Source: Phycisphaerae bacterium
GTDB taxonomy: Bacteria > Planctomycetota > Phycisphaerae > UBA1845
Direction of reading: 5' to 3'
Assembly: GCA_029260165.1 (NCBI GenBank)
Contig: JAJDDT010000098.1
Span: 1 to 45,376, forward strand
Length of the DNA: 45,376 nt
In this document: piece by piece, positions 37,973 to 45,261 of the stretch
Position numbering within the stretch: position 1 is the stretch's first letter
Layout: each line of letters starts with the position of its first letter
The notes under the pieces: generated by a model
The model's input: only the letters and a program-made list of their open reading frames with translations
Told to the model about the DNA's origin: nothing
The model's database searches: none
Made by a program: the position numbers and the translations under genes

Positions 37973-40531
37973 ATGCCGTCATCGGAGGGGGCATCGAACG
38001 TCTTTGAACCCACCCACACATTCCGGCAGGGGATCGACAGCGAACCGTGTGCCGGACCTGGCGAAAAGGTTGGTAAATTGTTGGCGAAACCCATTCCTGC
38101 CGTTTGTGCGGTCTGCTGCGTAGTCTTCCTGTCCGCCGGGGTATCGGCCCAGACCCAGGGCCCGACCAGCTCGGACGTGCCCTACATGCTGCCAAACGGG
38201 CCCGACGTACAGACCATCTCGTTGCTGACGGTGGGCGACTCGGTCAACCTCAAGCCTGACGGCGTGACGCCGTATCGACTGGTCGGGGTTCCGGACGGAA
38301 TGGGAGCCTACGACAACGGTGACGGGACGTTTACCATTCTCCTGAACCACGAGCTGAACGGATTTCAGGGAATTGTCCGGGCGCACGGCGGTGCCGGAGC
38401 GTTCGTTTCCATGTGGACCGTGGACACCGCCACGCTGGCTGTTCTCCACGGACAGGATCTGATTCAGGAGGCGTTCGTCTGGAATCCGACGACGGGCGTC
38501 TACGAGCAATCCGCGAACGAGAGGTTCCTGCGGTTCTGTTCGGGTGACCTGCCGCCATCGGGCGCGTTCCTTAACCCCACGACCGGGTTGGGCACGACCG
38601 AACAACTGTACACCAACGGCGAGGAAACAGGCAGTGAAGGCAGGGCGTTCGCGCACATCATCACCGGGCCCAACGCCGGACGGTCCTACGAGTTGCCCCG
38701 ATCCGGCAAACTCAGCTTCGAGAATTTCGTCGTCGCCCCATCGGCCGGCGACACGACCGTCGGAATCGGGTTCGATGACTCCAACGGTGGGCAGGTTTAC
38801 GTCTACGTCGGAACCAAGACCAACACCGGCAACGAGATCGAACGTGCAGGTTTGACCAACGGGGTGTTGTACGGTCTGGTCGTCGACGGTCTGCCCGCGG
38901 AAGTTCCGTCCAACGGACTGGGTGGTCCGACCAGCCTCCCTTTTAGTCTGCACAATTTCGGCGATGTCTCTTCGCTGACCGGTGTGGAACTGCAAAACCT
39001 CAGCTTTGTCAACGGTGTCACCGCCTTTCTTCGCCCGGAGGACGGTCACTTCGATCCGCGCGACACGCGGCCCAACGATTGCTACTGGGCGACAACCGGC
39101 AGCGGCTCCGGTCCGGGTCGGCTTTGGAGGCTTCGTTTCACCGACATCACCAATCCTGCGTTGGGTGGCACTATCGACATGGTGCTCGACGGCACGGAAG
39201 GCGTGGTCAAACCCGACAACATGACCGTCGATCAGGCCGGGAACATCCTTATTCAGGAGGACCGGGGAAACACCACCGCTTTGGGGAGGATCTGGCAATA
39301 CAAAACCGCCACCGGAGCGCTGTCAGCCGTCGGCACGCACAATCCCGATTTCTTCGACGCTTTCCTCGAACCGTCGAATTTCCTGACCGTCAACGAAGAG
39401 TCATCGGGCATCATCGACGCCCGGGACATCCTCGGTCCCGGCTGGTACCTGTTTGATGTGCAGGCTCATTTCGGCATCGGCGATACCGAGCTGGTCCAGG
39501 GCGGGCAGATATTGGCCATGTTCATTCCCGATGAATTCTGCGGTGACGGTATTATCAACAACGTCCCGAACGAACCGTGTGACGACGGAAACAACACGCC
39601 CGGTGATGGATGCGACGCAAACTGCGTGGTCGAGTTCTGCGGTGACGGCATCACCAACGACGCCCCCAATGAGCAGTGCGACGACGGGAACTTCACGGTT
39701 GGTGACGGCTGCGACGAGAACTGTGTCACGGAGTTCTGCGGTGACGGCATCATAAACAACGCTCCGAATGAGGCGTGCGACGACGGCAACGTCGCGTCTG
39801 GTGACGGATGTGACGCGAACTGCCTCGTCGAATTCTGCGGTGACGGCATCACAAACGACGATCCGAACGAGGAATGTGACGACGGAAACAACCTCGACAA
39901 CGATGGCTGCGACGCGAACTGTGTGACTGAGTTTTGCGGTGACGGTGTCGTCAACAACGACCCAAACGAAGAATGCGACGATGGCAACTTCACGGTTGGT
40001 GACGGCTGCGACGAGAACTGCATCGCGGAGATATGCGGGAACAACGTGCTCCAGGCTGGTGAGCAGTGCGATGACGGAAACAATGTCAGCGGTGACGGAT
40101 GCGATCAGAATTGCGACATCGAGTTCTGCGGCGACGGGTTCACCAACAACGCGGGCAACGAGGGATGTGACGACGGGAACGCAATCTCAGGTGACGGCTG
40201 CTCTGCTGTGTGTGTTGCCGAATTCTGCGGTGACGGCATCATCAACAATCTGCCGAACGAGGAATGCGACGACGCGAACAGCATCGACGGCGACGGTTGT
40301 CAGAGCGACTGTCGCAATCCGGTCTGCGGCGACGGCATCATCGACATCAGCAACGGTGAGCAATGCGACGACGGAAACGACGATCCGAGTGACGAGTGTG
40401 GCACGAACTGCCGGTTTGATCCCACCGTACCCACGGTTACATCGTCGGGCATGGTCGTCCTCATGTTGGCCTTGATGGTTGCAGTCGCGATCAGGTTCCG
40501 TCGCCCGGCGTCTTCATGCTCTTCTGAATAG
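37973..40531 (+). CDS. PhoX-like secreted protein with nine DUF4215 repeats
   Basis: The 852-codon frame opens at ATG 37973, but no ribosome site is seen there. The signal peptide (AVCAVCCVVFLSAGVSAQ) lies at about 43-60, and TTG codons at 38078/38081 with AAAAGG upstream give a more usual start. Residues about 70-510 resemble PhoX-like (DUF839) propeller phosphatases: LLNHELNGF, LRPEDGHFDPRD, DNMTVDQAGNILIQED and EESSGIIDARD. Nine Cys-rich repeats of about 33 residues follow (see repeat entry). The end (VPTVTSSGMVVLMLALMVAV, then RFRR) resembles an IPTL/PEP-CTERM-type sorting signal. An outer-surface phosphoesterase is likely; catalysis is unverified. Confidence 0.7.
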   Translation: MPSSEGASNVFEPTHTFRQGIDSEPCAGPGEKVGKLLAKPIPAVCAVCCVVFLSAGVSAQTQGPTSSDVPYMLPNGPDVQTISLLTVGDSVNLKPDGVTPYRLVGVPDGMGAYDNGDGTFTILLNHELNGFQGIVRAHGGAGAFVSMWTVDTATLAVLHGQDLIQEAFVWNPTTGVYEQSANERFLRFCSGDLPPSGAFLNPTTGLGTTEQLYTNGEETGSEGRAFAHIITGPNAGRSYELPRSGKLSFENFVVAPSAGDTTVGIGFDDSNGGQVYVYVGTKTNTGNEIERAGLTNGVLYGLVVDGLPAEVPSNGLGGPTSLPFSLHNFGDVSSLTGVELQNLSFVNGVTAFLRPEDGHFDPRDTRPNDCYWATTGSGSGPGRLWRLRFTDITNPALGGTIDMVLDGTEGVVKPDNMTVDQAGNILIQEDRGNTTALGRIWQYKTATGALSAVGTHNPDFFDAFLEPSNFLTVNEESSGIIDARDILGPGWYLFDVQAHFGIGDTELVQGGQILAMFIPDEFCGDGIINNVPNEPCDDGNNTPGDGCDANCVVEFCGDGITNDAPNEQCDDGNFTVGDGCDENCVTEFCGDGIINNAPNEACDDGNVASGDGCDANCLVEFCGDGITNDDPNEECDDGNNLDNDGCDANCVTEFCGDGVVNNDPNEECDDGNFTVGDGCDENCIAEICGNNVLQAGEQCDDGNNVSGDGCDQNCDIEFCGDGFTNNAGNEGCDDGNAISGDGCSAVCVAEFCGDGIINNLPNEECDDANSIDGDGCQSDCRNPVCGDGIIDISNGEQCDDGNDDPSDECGTNCRFDPTVPTVTSSGMVVLMLALMVAVAIRFRRPASSCSSE
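39533..40417 (+). repeat. Nine tandem DUF4215 (Myxococcus-type Cys-rich) repeats
   Basis: About nine units of roughly 99 bases, each encoding EFCGDGI.N..PNE.CDDGN then GDGCD.NC (positions 39533-40417). Unit 6 has lost two residues and reads EICGNNVLQAGEQCDDGNN. The DNA is highly similar between units, for example the GACGGTAACTTCACGGTTGG-like block in units 2 and 5. Each unit has four Cys, expected to pair. Confidence 0.85.
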
Positions 40532-40789: not shown

Positions 40790-42373
40790 ATGTATTTACA
40801 CGCAATCATCGCCTACTGTATGCTCATCTGGTGGCTGCAGGACCGTCCTGTCGAACCTTGGCTGACGAATTCCACCGGGATGTGGGCTGTCGTGCTCGGG
40901 CAGATGGTGGTGATCGCCGTTCTGGCTACGATCGCGTCACGGTCAGCCGTCAGGGTCTTCGACAGCTCGCCCGACGGTCCCCATGACGCCCAACACCTCC
41001 ACCATCGCAACAACCTGATCCTGCGAACATTGGTCCTGCTCACCTTCGCCGCAAACCTCGCACTCACGCCCTGGGTTGACTGGGTAAACCAGCTCAAACC
41101 CATTTCAAAAATCCCCGGACTACCGGGTGTCATCATGCTCGTTCCGTTCCTGCTGACCGCCACCATCGCGATCGCGTGCTCCTTTCCAATCGACCGAAAA
41201 ATCCGCTTCCGGGTGGCAGGCACACAGGCGTGGCGAACAGGCTCCACACCGCAGGTCTGGAATTTCAAGACGTATCTGAGCTTTAACGTGCGTCACCAGT
41301 TGCTCGCCGTCATCGCACCGACGACGTTCATCCTCGCTGCCTTCGACGTCACAACAACGCACGAGCAGGCCATCCTGCAAGTCATTCCCATCCAGTGGGC
41401 ACCCGATGCAATTCTGGGCCTGACTGCGGCGGGTGTCTTCATCCTGGCACCCTGGATGCTCCGCCATATCTGGACCACGCACTCCATGCCCGACGGACCG
41501 CTGCGACAACAATTGCAAAAATCATGCGAACGGATTGGACTGAAATGTCGAGACATCCTCGTGTGGCGAAGCGGAGGCATGATCGTCAACGCCGCCGTCA
41601 TGGGCATTCTCGCTCCCATCCGCTACGTCATGCTCAGCGACGGACTGCTCAGCGCCCTGTCGTCCAGACAAATCGAAGCAGTCTTCGGCCACGAAGCAGG
41701 CCACGTCAGGCATCGACATATTCAACACTTCCTCGTATTCGCCATGACCAGCATGCTGGTCTCCGGTGCAGCCATGGAGGGTGTCTACCAATGGCAACGC
41801 AATTACCCCGACGTCCTGCCATTCAATTTCACCATGACATCCATCCAGGGTATAGGCCTGGTCGTCATCGTGCTCATCTGGGGGATCGGGTTCGGATTCG
41901 TCTCTCGCCGATTCGAACGACAGGCGGACCTGTTCGGTGCCCGATGCGTCACGCCGAATGACGAACGCGAATGCGATCAACCCTGCGGACTCCACCCCCG
42001 CGCCGAAATCGAAATCGACAACGACAAGACCACACCACTCTGCGCTTCAGGTGCCAAAACATTCGGAAGCGCCCTCGAAGCCGTCGCCGTCCTCAACGGA
42101 ATCCCCGTCGAAGAACGAAGCTGGCGACACTCCTCCATCGCAAGTCGCATCCGCCACCTCAACACCCTCGCAGCCGACCGCAACCAACTCGTCCGCTTTG
42201 AAAACGTCATCCGCCGCATCAAACGCACCCAACTCGCCATCGCCGTCGCAGCCGTCATCATCTCCTGCGCTTACGGACTATACGTCTACGCGGAACGTCA
42301 AACGCAGCCATCAGGTGTTCGCAGGACCGAGACCGTCCTGATACACCATCCTGCACCATCGGCGAATATCTGA
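40790..42373 (+). CDS. M48-family membrane zinc metalloprotease
   Basis: The 527-residue protein has several membrane helices in its first 200 residues and one near 345-365. The catalytic HExxH motif is FGHEAGHVRHRH (about 302-313), with Glu for proton transfer. The third ligand Glu is not securely identified; FERQADLFGARC (about 374-385) holds the ExxxD pattern usual in M48. The family includes HtpX and CAAX-type endopeptidases that clear membrane proteins. A long insertion with several Cys and acidic residues (PNDERECDQPCGLHPRAEIE) follows. The antiporter gene begins 11 bases later. Confidence 0.85.
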   Translation: MYLHAIIAYCMLIWWLQDRPVEPWLTNSTGMWAVVLGQMVVIAVLATIASRSAVRVFDSSPDGPHDAQHLHHRNNLILRTLVLLTFAANLALTPWVDWVNQLKPISKIPGLPGVIMLVPFLLTATIAIACSFPIDRKIRFRVAGTQAWRTGSTPQVWNFKTYLSFNVRHQLLAVIAPTTFILAAFDVTTTHEQAILQVIPIQWAPDAILGLTAAGVFILAPWMLRHIWTTHSMPDGPLRQQLQKSCERIGLKCRDILVWRSGGMIVNAAVMGILAPIRYVMLSDGLLSALSSRQIEAVFGHEAGHVRHRHIQHFLVFAMTSMLVSGAAMEGVYQWQRNYPDVLPFNFTMTSIQGIGLVVIVLIWGIGFGFVSRRFERQADLFGARCVTPNDERECDQPCGLHPRAEIEIDNDKTTPLCASGAKTFGSALEAVAVLNGIPVEERSWRHSSIASRIRHLNTLAADRNQLVRFENVIRRIKRTQLAIAVAAVIISCAYGLYVYAERQTQPSGVRRTETVLIHHPAPSANI

Positions 42374-42384
42374 GGAGTTTTCCC

Positions 42385-44202
42385 ATGCACGAAAACGCTC
42401 TGCTGCTCGTCTCAATCATCGTCGTCGTCGGTATCTTCGCACAGTGGCTTTCCTGGCGCGTTGGCATCCCGTCCATCCTTCTGTTACTCGTCACCGGCGT
42501 CGTCATCGGCCCCATTACAGGCATCATCGACCCCGACGCCATCTTCGGCGAGCTTCTCCAGCCCATCGTCGCCCTCTCCGTAGGCCTCATTCTTTACGAA
42601 GGTGGGCTTACACTGAAAATGTCCGATCTGCCCAGGGTCGGGCAGGTCGTTCGCAATCTTGTCACCATCGGCGCACTCGCAACCTGGCTCGTCTCCACCG
42701 TCGCGGCTCATTTCATATTGGGCTTGCCCGCGACGCTCTCCGCGCTGCTCGGTGCCATCCTCGTCGTCACAGGCCCGACGGTCATCACCCCTCTGCTACG
42801 CCACATCCGACCCCGGGGCGTCGTCGGATCGATCATGAAATGGGAGGGCATCGTCATCGACCCCATCGGTGCCAGCCTGACCGTCCTGGTCTTTGAAGCC
42901 ATCAACATCGGCAACACCACCGAAGCCACAAGTCACATCGCCATCGCCATCCTCAAAACCGTCGCCATCGGGGGCGGATTCGGATTCGTCGCCGCCGCGA
43001 TCCTTGTCCTGCTCCTCCAACGATTCTGGATCCCCGATCATCTCCAAAACGCCGTCTCCCTCATGCTCGTCATCGCCGCATTCACAGGCTCCAACATGCT
43101 TCAACACGAGTCGGGCCTCCTGGCTGCCACCGTCATGGGATTTGTCCTCGCCAATCAGAAACGCGTCGACATCGAGGACATCGTGGAGTTCAAGGAGAAC
43201 CTGCAGGTTCTGCTCATCTCCATGCTGTTTGTCATATTGGCTGCACGACTCGAACTCAACGACCTGACCGCCATTGCAATCCCCGGAACGATTTTCGTCG
43301 TCATTCTCATCGCCGTCGCCAGACCCCTGGGCGTCTGGATTTCCACGCTCGGATCATCGCTGTCAAAACCCGAACGCATCTTCATGGCTTTGATGGCACC
43401 GCGTGGCATTGTGGCTGCCGCCGTCGCGTCCGTCCTCGCCCTCAAAATCGAGGGACACAATCCGCAGGGTGCCCGCGCTCTCGTCGCCGTCACCTTCATC
43501 ACGATCATCCTGACCGTCGCATTTTACGGGCTCGTCGCACCCGTCATCGCCCGCAGACTCGGCGTCTCCGAAGCCAATCCCCAGGGCATCGTTTTTGCCG
43601 GCGCGGGTGTCTGGGTCCGCGACATCGCACAGCTTCTCAAAAAACAGGGCTTCCGCGTTCTGCTCATCGACAGCAACTACGACAACGTTCAGCAAGCGAG
43701 GATGGCTGGCCTGGACGCCGTTCGCCGCAGCATCCTTGGCGAACATCTCGTCGACGCCATTGACCTCGCCGGCATCGGACGCATCCTCGCGGTCACGCCC
43801 AACGACTGGGTCAACGTACTCGCCGTTCAACGCTTCACCCGCGTTCTCGGACGGGCAAACTGCTATCAAATCGCGTGGCGCCCCACGCAAAAACAAATCG
43901 AAAAACACAAACACCTGCTCGGGCGACCCCTGTTCGGCGAGAATATCACCGGAGCGAAGCTCTCCCGGATCAACGAACGCGGATTCGTCGCCAAGGCAAC
44001 CAGACTGTCCGACGATTTCACCTACGACGATTTCCAGGCTCAATATGACGGAGCCATCGTCCCTCTGTTCGTTATTGACGAAAACGATCGCCTGCTTGTC
44101 CTCACCGCCAACCAATCGCCCGACCCCGGACCGGGACAGACCATCGTTGCATTCGTCAAAACCGCCCTCCAGCCCGGGGATTCTATCACGCCTGCCTCCT
44201 GA
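42385..44202 (+). CDS. CPA1/NhaP-type sodium:proton antiporter with TrkA-N domain
   Basis: The 605-residue protein has about 12 membrane helices (about 5-400) with strings such as GVVIGPITGIIDPDAIFGEL, LYEGGL and GPTVITPLLRHIRPRG, and a cytosolic nucleotide-binding TrkA-N/RCK-like domain (about 400-510; IVFAGAGVWVRDIAQLLKKQ, LLIDSNYDNVQQARM). The TrkA-N signature G.G..G is altered to GAGVWV. Its role would be cation/proton exchange gated by NAD or another nucleotide. TGAGGAG lies 9-12 bases before the ATG at 42385. It is close to the M48 gene and may share its transcript. Confidence 0.88.
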   Translation: MHENALLLVSIIVVVGIFAQWLSWRVGIPSILLLLVTGVVIGPITGIIDPDAIFGELLQPIVALSVGLILYEGGLTLKMSDLPRVGQVVRNLVTIGALATWLVSTVAAHFILGLPATLSALLGAILVVTGPTVITPLLRHIRPRGVVGSIMKWEGIVIDPIGASLTVLVFEAINIGNTTEATSHIAIAILKTVAIGGGFGFVAAAILVLLLQRFWIPDHLQNAVSLMLVIAAFTGSNMLQHESGLLAATVMGFVLANQKRVDIEDIVEFKENLQVLLISMLFVILAARLELNDLTAIAIPGTIFVVILIAVARPLGVWISTLGSSLSKPERIFMALMAPRGIVAAAVASVLALKIEGHNPQGARALVAVTFITIILTVAFYGLVAPVIARRLGVSEANPQGIVFAGAGVWVRDIAQLLKKQGFRVLLIDSNYDNVQQARMAGLDAVRRSILGEHLVDAIDLAGIGRILAVTPNDWVNVLAVQRFTRVLGRANCYQIAWRPTQKQIEKHKHLLGRPLFGENITGAKLSRINERGFVAKATRLSDDFTYDDFQAQYDGAIVPLFVIDENDRLLVLTANQSPDPGPGQTIVAFVKTALQPGDSITPAS

Positions 44203-44281: not shown

Positions 44282-45130
44282 ATGACCGAGAATGATATGA
44301 CTGAAAACCCAACCCCCGCTCCAAAGCAGACGAGCAGCCTCAGAATCGGCGCGTGGACCGTCGTGTCGCTGCTCCTTGCGTTCACCTTGTACAACCTGTT
44401 TATCACCGCACAGGACTATCTCCGGGGGGCCCCTCCACGTCGGACGATCACCTTCCACATCGACGGCGAGGACAAGTTTCTGTGGGCCAAAGGTTCACGC
44501 GAATTCGGTGACCCCGATTCCGAGTGGTTCAACCTCACAGGCTCACCTCTGCCGATGAAGGATTTTCAATACGGTATCGGAAAGGACAGAATCCCCTCCA
44601 TCGACGATCCGGTTTTCGTCGATCCCGACGACGATCGGTTGGCTGCCTTCTGGAAGGAAAATGGTGTCACCGATCTCGACAAATTGAAAATCATCGGCTA
44701 CGAGCACAACGGGGTCGCCCGCGCCTACCCGCGCGCGCTTCTCGACGGACATGAACTCGTCAACGACACCATCGGCGGAAAACCCGTCACCGTCGGGTGG
44801 TGACCGCTCGTCCAACTGTCCGTGGTCTACGGACGCGAAATCGACGGCGAAACAGTCACCTTCGGCACGACGGGCTACACGTTCAACAACGTCTTTGTGC
44901 TGTACGACCGCAAGACGGACGCCATCTGGTATCCTCTCGACGACGGCGGGCTTGACGCCATCGGGGGAAACAGGCACGGCGACAAAATACCCTTCATCGA
45001 AAAACCACCCGTCGAAACCCTCGGCGAGTGGCTTGGCAAACACCCCGATTCACAGGTCCTGCTCGACGACGCCGGAAACCTGGAAACCAACCCGACCCCC
45101 GAGGACACCAACGACGAAAAAACCTCCTGA
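44282..45130 (+). CDS. DUF3179 selenoprotein (in-frame TGA at codon 174)
   Basis: A continuous frame of 282 sense codons is interrupted only by TGA at 44801-44803. A membrane helix lies at about 17-40 (IGAWTVVSLLLAFTLYNLF), so the rest is outside. The DUF3179 signature is GVARAYPRALLDGHELVND, then TIGGKPVTVGW, TGA, PLV. Family members have VTYCPLC here, so TGA stands at the first Cys and the second Cys is Val. The conserved part continues after TGA: VVYGREIDGETVTFG, GYTFNNVFVLYDRKT, DAIWYPLDDGGLDA. AAAAGGA lies about 10 bases before the ATG. A SECIS-like hairpin follows (44804-44847). A nonsense mutation is the alternative, but no other decay is visible. Sec machinery genes are not in the window. 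Confidence 0.85.
44804..44847 (+). promoter_or_regulatory. SECIS-like element for selenocysteine insertion
   Basis: GTCCG (44818-44822) pairs with CGGAC (44830-44834) around a 7-base loop TGGTCTA. The GGTCT in the loop (44824-44828) matches the loop of the E. coli fdhF SECIS as I recall it. The loop GG begins 20 bases after the TGA, within the distance used by bacteria. A lower stem (44808-44812 with 44843-44847) can also form across an internal loop. Confidence 0.7.
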
Positions 45131-45170
45131 TCACCGCAGATGTCCTCGATCCGCCTCGGCACACCTTTCC

Positions 45171-45261
45171 GCGGGTGGCCCATCGCTTTTTGGGGGCATG
45201 GCTTTGGTGGCGGGTGGCCCATCGCTTTGGTGGGCGGGTGGCCCATGGCTTTAGCCGTGGG
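45171..45261. repeat. Three GGGTGGCCCAT repeats and a hairpin
   Basis: GCGGGTGGCCCATCGCTTT occurs at 45171 and 45210, and GCGGGTGGCCCATGGCTTT at 45234. The last copy is part of an 8-bp hairpin (CCCATGGC 45242-45249 with GCCGTGGG 45254-45261, one G·T). It follows the DUF3179 gene by about 40 bases and shares its GGGTGGCC core with the hairpin at 413-451. The remaining bases to the window end hold no clear gene. Confidence 0.55.

Follow-up and report, generated by a model that had tools for sequence, protein, structure and literature searches.

A DUF3179 gene that looks broken in the window (the whole stretch of 45,376 nucleotides analysed here, from a Phycisphaerae bacterium) is almost certainly intact, its single internal TGA (44801-44803) being predicted from sequence to insert selenocysteine (Sec). 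The gene product would be an anchored, probably extracytoplasmic DUF3179 selenoprotein, with SelB binding a hairpin 20 nt downstream and delivering Sec-tRNA(Sec) to the ribosome at the UGA at 44801, while the UGA at 45128, which has no such hairpin, would act as the stop. The original prediction had already taken the internal TGA for a bacterial selenocysteine codon, and the Sec genes, the TGA at the same column in relatives and a covarying bacterial SECIS (bSECIS) hairpin were all found.

Reading frame and domain

The gene occupies 44282-45130 on the + strand, in a frame that is open apart from one TGA at codon 174, and would encode a complete selenoprotein of 282 residues with Sec at residue 174. 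The same frame continues for 108 sense codons beyond this TGA, the number originally counted, to a terminal TGA (45128-45130, + strand) that we take as the stop and that serves as an internal control against global TGA reassignment; a fold of 45125-45175, around the terminal TGA, is not better than shuffles (z 0.29). A standard ORF list splits the gene into 44282-44803 and 44822-45130, the two truncated ORFs that ordinary gene callers had been expected to report. Because such mechanical lists split the gene at the UGA, databases probably contain two fragments in place of a protein that is conserved in many Planctomycetota families.

Read through the TGA, the full frame matches the Pfam profile of DUF3179 (PF11376) at E 4e-34, with 118.8 bits against a gathering cut-off of 27, over residues 101-267 (44582-45082, + strand; model positions 1-154 of 292), and the match spans the TGA uninterrupted. 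It is the sole DUF3179 match in the 4.43-Mb genome. Ahead of the domain, residues 27-41 (44360-44404, + strand) form a hydrophobic stretch (Kyte-Doolittle mean 2.2 over 15 residues) that is a putative membrane anchor. An NCBIfam search of three members of the family returned nothing above a cut-off.

Conservation of the TGA in relatives

Within the class Phycisphaerae, 122 of 397 genomes have a DUF3179 match at E 1e-10 or better, and 41 of the match rows, the window included, bear a TGA. We read all 41 at the codon, and in every one the TGA falls at the same column, in the motif GW-U-PL or near variants of it (SW-U-PSE in L066 and L067). In 40 of the 41 loci the frame 3' of the TGA stays open, over 89-139 codons. 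Conservation at the protein level also persists downstream in an alignment that comprises all class TGA loci except L059 and L065 (39 sequences, the window protein included), and conserved positions flank the TGA. All 39 match PF11376 at E 0.01 or better, and no column other than that of Sec is an invariant or nearly invariant Cys/Sec position among them. In L065 (G216:C86) the frame breaks 29 codons past the TGA and the hairpin is retained; the same genome also has an intact copy, L040.

A profile search of the phylum covered 392 genomes, of which 121 matched, and 68 of the 147 listed rows carry one TGA (hand count, the window's own included). Outside the class we read 26 of the other 67 TGA rows at the codon; these span 18 family codes of the phylum, and all 26 have the TGA at the same column. 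L124 and L129 represent a divergent TGA subfamily (Y-U-VxC) without a hairpin at the usual place, L124 having one with a 6-nt loop and a spacing of 21. A peptide-pattern scan of genome contigs recovered three loci, all from Phycisphaerae MAGs, and a scan of viral contigs found no relatives.

Cys homologues at the Sec column were found both in the phylum, where Cys is present in each of the five best-scoring stop-free rows, and in the class, where the 29 stop-free relatives read (of 107 rows, hand count) have Ser in 10, Cys in 8, Asp in 6, Asn in 4 and Ala in 1. The stop-free class relatives are more distant paralogs, and among those read (L068-L097) 21 of 29 have Ser, Asp, Asn or Ala instead of the first Cys, and 22 of 29 have Cys at +3. 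A search of homologues at this column, proposed at the outset, returns TGA or Cys in relatives, with non-Cys sense codons occurring, among the rows read, in more distant paralogs rather than with a decayed frame in close ones. The original prediction had also set the TGA at the first Cys of a VTYCPLC motif. The column was right, since Cys-bearing relatives have the first Cys of CPLC at the position of the TGA, but the local motif of the window protein is VTVGW-U-PLV.

Valine does stand at +3, where the second Cys of the pair would be, as had been pointed out. The further remark that such a one-chalcogen site is unusual holds less well: a Sec site lacking Cys at +3 is not wholly unusual, because the published motif is UxxC/T and none of the 41 class rows has Cys there. 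In these 41 rows the +3 residue is Ala in 25, Val in 8, Asp in 5, Glu in 2 and Ser in 1 (hand count), with neither Cys nor Thr in any, and in the 26 out-of-class TGA loci read it is Cys in 19, Thr in 2, Val in 2, Ala in 2 and Glu in 1.

That the TGA arose by misassembly or by a recent nonsense mutation, which would make the gene a pseudogene, is exceedingly improbable in view of these relatives. A young pseudogene, too, would have a frame interrupted by one stop alone, and L065 has a frame broken further on; against this, the same codon occupies the same column in 67 of the 67 TGA loci read, the frame behind it stays open in 40 of 41 class loci with conservation at the protein level, and both codon choice and base pairing are conserved behind the TGA (see below). 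We rejected pseudogene and sequencing error alike on this conservation across relatives.

Termination competes with Sec insertion at Sec UGA codons, and the UGA might accordingly be imagined as a selenium-dependent switch, yielding a functional anchored fragment of 173 residues when selenium is low and the full protein when it is available. Truncation would leave the anchor in place and remove the matched domain's second half. We consider such a switch improbable, given that the fragment shows no sign of function and that residues both before and after the TGA are conserved; the reading of the UGA as a codon for selenocysteine in one full-length protein is preferred.

The downstream hairpin

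The hairpin with a GGUCU loop that had been described 20 bases downstream is present at 44817-44835 (+ strand), with a 7-bp stem (44817-44823 paired with 44829-44835), its loop at 44824-44828, an inner pair 44824:44827, and 20 nt separating the TGA from the loop. The prototype of bacterial SECIS elements is that of E. coli fdhF. The bSECIS rules, as set out in a recent review (PMC13188914, Fig. 2 legend), call for a loop of 3-9 nt, an upper stem of 4-16 bp, a G in the first two loop positions, a spacing of 16-37 nt and an MFE of at most -7.5. A comparison with bSECIS models had been proposed at the outset; the window hairpin, at -9.2 kcal/mol, fits the rules, and its stem covaries in relatives.

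In the window sequence alone this hairpin carries little weight, because its fold energy is near chance and 18% of synonymous recodings of the stretch also yield some rule-fitting hairpin. The 50-nt fold does not stand out (-17.7 kcal/mol, z -1.12), the 21-nt hairpin by itself reaches z -2.79, and an Rfam search of the window at gathering thresholds gave no match. It is conservation and covariation in the relatives that carry the hairpin. All 41 class TGA loci pass the bSECIS rules with a stricter stem of at least 6 bp, the MFE limit not being applied; the loose rule is weak alone, since 14 of 29 stop-free relatives also pass it, at scattered positions. The spacing is a constant 20 nt in 41 of 41 class loci, tighter than the 16-37 nt that the published consensus permits in the passages cited (PMC13188914), with no difference of consequence. 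Counting as a hairpin at the exact place at least five contiguous pairs from the tip with a spacing of 20 and a loop of 5 (by hand), we found one in all 41 class TGA loci and in 21 of the 26 from outside the class (62 of 67), against one of the 34 stop-free loci read. The five remaining out-of-class TGA loci have fewer than five contiguous pairs at that position. The single stop-free case is L106, a Cys locus with eight pairs at the hairpin position, G-U counted; the Ser locus L068 has six pairs and a wider loop.

Pairing extends to 99.7% of cells across the 41 class sequences, and four pairs change on both sides, with a covariation score of 0.241 that none of 500 shuffles reached and that falls to 0.068 or less when the partner is slid. 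With 67 sequences, 95.7% of cells are paired, seven of eight pairs change on both sides, and 104 cells are changed on both sides against a shuffled mean of 35.7, while the covariation score of 0.570 (0.206 when shuffled) was again reached by none of 500. Other measures are less extreme: on 67 sequences the number of pairs changed on both sides was reached in 6 of 500 shuffles and the number of pair types in 15 of 500, and on 41 sequences the pair types were reached in 19 of 500. Loop positions 1 and 4 also covary among the 67 sequences (C-G in 27, G-U in 15, G-C in 14, A-U in 8, other in 3), and correspond to the N1/N2 pair of the bSECIS rule as given in the review's passages (PMC13188914). 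Codon choice in the stem is similarly constrained, Ser at U+6 being TCC in 37 of 37 cases compared with 21% elsewhere in the same genes, and Gly at U+10 being GGA in 36 of 38 compared with 18% elsewhere in the same genes.

Selenocysteine machinery

The organism was predicted to have SelA, SelB, SelC and SelD, and its genome contains the genes for all four, the complete set expected of an organism with a bacterial selenoprotein; their absence had been named as grounds for abandoning the prediction. Counting neighbours in frame, selB scores 361.3 bits against a cut-off of 242.25, and the selA match (541.6 bits) begins 42 bases past the end of the selB match. A tRNA-Sec is found by covariance model (68.1 bits against 47) and is also called by ARAGORN, with anticodon TCA. 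The selD match (367.8 bits) has one in-frame TGA of its own, in the motif AGUAGK. This selD (L018 1531, G000:C10) is apparently a selenoprotein gene too, with its TGA in CAGUAGK and a strong hairpin downstream.

The TGA form of DUF3179 travels with selB. Within the class, selB is above the cut-off in 28 of the 30 genomes with the TGA form, the remaining two being 81% and 85% complete, a link that is inflated by relatedness, because most listed members of the window's order have selB; over the class as a whole it is above the cut-off in 146 of 397 genomes. Outside the class, it is above the cut-off in 26 of 26 TGA genomes and in 3 of 14 genomes with a stop-free listed DUF3179 match, all 40 having been hand-picked from the 121 phylum genomes that match DUF3179, the 14 for their stop-free listed match, and the 14 are non-independent (7 from family f50 and 3 from family f113). 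Both TGA sets combined give 54 of 56 genomes with selB. We detected tRNA-Sec in 23 of the 30 class TGA genomes by a search that scored 98 of several hundred candidates per genome, so that misses are possible, and six of the seven genomes without it have selB; in G340 (81% complete) neither selB nor tRNA-Sec was detected. G071, of the same genus as the window, has a second tRNA-Sec-like match of 49.6 bits, barely above the cut-off, 2.7 kb from the first (G071:C69:73161-73255 and 75984-76073).

These data bear on whether near-cognate decoding or an altered genetic code might instead place Trp or Cys at the UGA. In favour of such a reading, the residue preceding the UGA is Trp in most members. 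Nevertheless, we regard a Trp or Cys reading as very improbable: the genome holds a complete Sec set, UGA terminates the window gene as well as 15 of the 41 class TGA frames (hand count, broken L065 included), selB accompanies 54 of 56 TGA genomes and 3 of 14 stop-free ones, and the hairpin conforms to the bacterial SECIS rules. Global UGA reassignment was rejected on the terminal UGA of the same gene and on the selB association. Insertion of selenocysteine remains the preferred reading.

History of the Sec form

We built a tree from 100 rows over 134 columns, with the focal column masked, a midpoint root and L065 omitted for its broken frame. The Sec label needs 3 changes on this tree, compared with 28.5 when shuffled. 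Four Cys rows (L103, L104, L106 and L107) form a clade nested inside the Sec rows, with starred branch support, and none of their genomes (G712, G737, G652 and G725) has selB above the cut-off. Judged from these sequences, a nested Cys clade without selB would look like the pattern expected of Sec-to-Cys replacement after loss of the machinery. The remaining Cys row of the five, L108, groups with the distant paralogs and comes from a genome (G633) that has selB.

Taken jointly, these observations suggest a tentative reading, to which we give somewhat less than an even chance, in which Sec would be ancestral in a large DUF3179 lineage across Planctomycetota; the protein would be an exported one-selenol enzyme; the second thiol would have been lost in a clade centred on Phycisphaerae; and replacement of Sec by Cys would have occurred mainly in lineages that lost the Sec machinery. 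Were this true, the lineage would be among the broadest uncharacterised selenoprotein lineages. Over the whole family, the midpoint root and the small number of columns (134) make any direction of change between Sec and Cys tentative.

Compartment and function

With start codons assigned by script, a hydrophobic stretch near the N-terminus occurs in 36 of the 41 class loci, and a crude pattern finds a lipobox-like motif in 8; because of these features the DUF3179 domain probably lies outside the cytoplasm. Apart from Sec174, the class clade conserves no chalcogen residue in this domain, and for that reason the protein is most likely a one-selenol redox enzyme, peroxidase- or reductase-like, an assignment much less certain than Sec insertion itself. 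An external thiol or a partner protein would restore the selenol of Sec174. Among solved structures, a profile search gave no match up to E 1, and structure prediction from four sequences (mean pLDDT 43) was too poor for a reading of the active site or a fold search.

The main rival to a redox role is that Sec174 is non-catalytic, a ligand or structural residue involved, for example, in metal binding. It owes that place to the distant paralogs, which use Ser, Asn or Asp at the column: the mixture of five residues in the 29 stop-free class relatives, 21 of them with Ser, Asp, Asn or Ala, is unusual for a strictly catalytic chalcogen, and 22 of the 29 keep Cys at +3. Two points argue against a ligand role: Sec is expensive to maintain and as a rule serves redox chemistry, and the Cys in all five best-scoring stop-free rows of the phylum is the usual Sec/Cys exchange. 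We judge such a role unlikely, though a good deal less so than the alternatives to Sec insertion weighed above, and favour the redox enzyme.

With Sec, Cys, Ser, Asn or Asp at one column, and with or without a neighbouring Cys, DUF3179 offers a clean test bed, to whose value the association of the Sec form with selB contributes. Its chemistry, if found, would show why a widespread Planctomycetota protein needs selenium.

Relation to known selenoproteins

It is necessary to amend the original prediction in one respect, in that DUF3179 is already catalogued as a selenoprotein family. Two reviews list PF11376 as such in their tables, with the motif UxxC/T (PMC9312934, 2022; PMC13188914, 2026), and the table in the earlier one cites Zhang and Gladyshev 2007, on an Olavius (deltaproteobacterial) symbiont, for the DUF3179 selenoprotein (PMC9312934). 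The main text of neither review mentions Planctomycetes (PMC9312934, PMC13188914). Our loci share with the published protein the Pfam family and Sec at the first position of a CxxC-like motif (all 41 class rows and all 26 read outside the class), and 19 of the 26 out-of-class loci are UxxC and 2 are UxxT. The published UxxC/T motif is thus found in 21 of 26 loci outside the class but neither in the window, which has Val, nor in any of the 41 class rows, which have Val, Ala, Asp, Ser or Glu.

Selenoproteins and a complete Sec machinery are described, in passages of one study, for the planctomycete strains P1 and P2 from Porphyra (PMC4807772). These belong to the same phylum as the window, have the same complete machinery, and were recognised by the same criteria of in-frame UGA and SECIS (PMC4807772, same passages). 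The passages name formate dehydrogenase and formylmethanofuran dehydrogenase and not DUF3179 (PMC4807772). The window gene is a member of a known selenoprotein family with a differing motif, and what differs here is the predicted single-Sec form without Cys or Thr at +3 in the class, together with a predicted Sec form in at least 18 further Planctomycetota families. As far as the literature searched extends, the spread of Sec-containing DUF3179 across the phylum appears to be unpublished.

Neighbourhood of the gene

Upstream, also on the + strand, lie a gene for a Na+/H+ exchanger with a TrkA_N domain (42385-44202) and one for an M48 peptidase (40790-42373). Farther away in the window, 37973-40531 is an ORF of 852 residues with nine DUF4215 stretches and a PhoX match slightly below the Pfam cut-off. 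Immediately 3' of the DUF3179 gene, at 45171-45252, are three near-identical 19-base copies of GCGGGTGGCCCATSGCTTT, spotted by eye.
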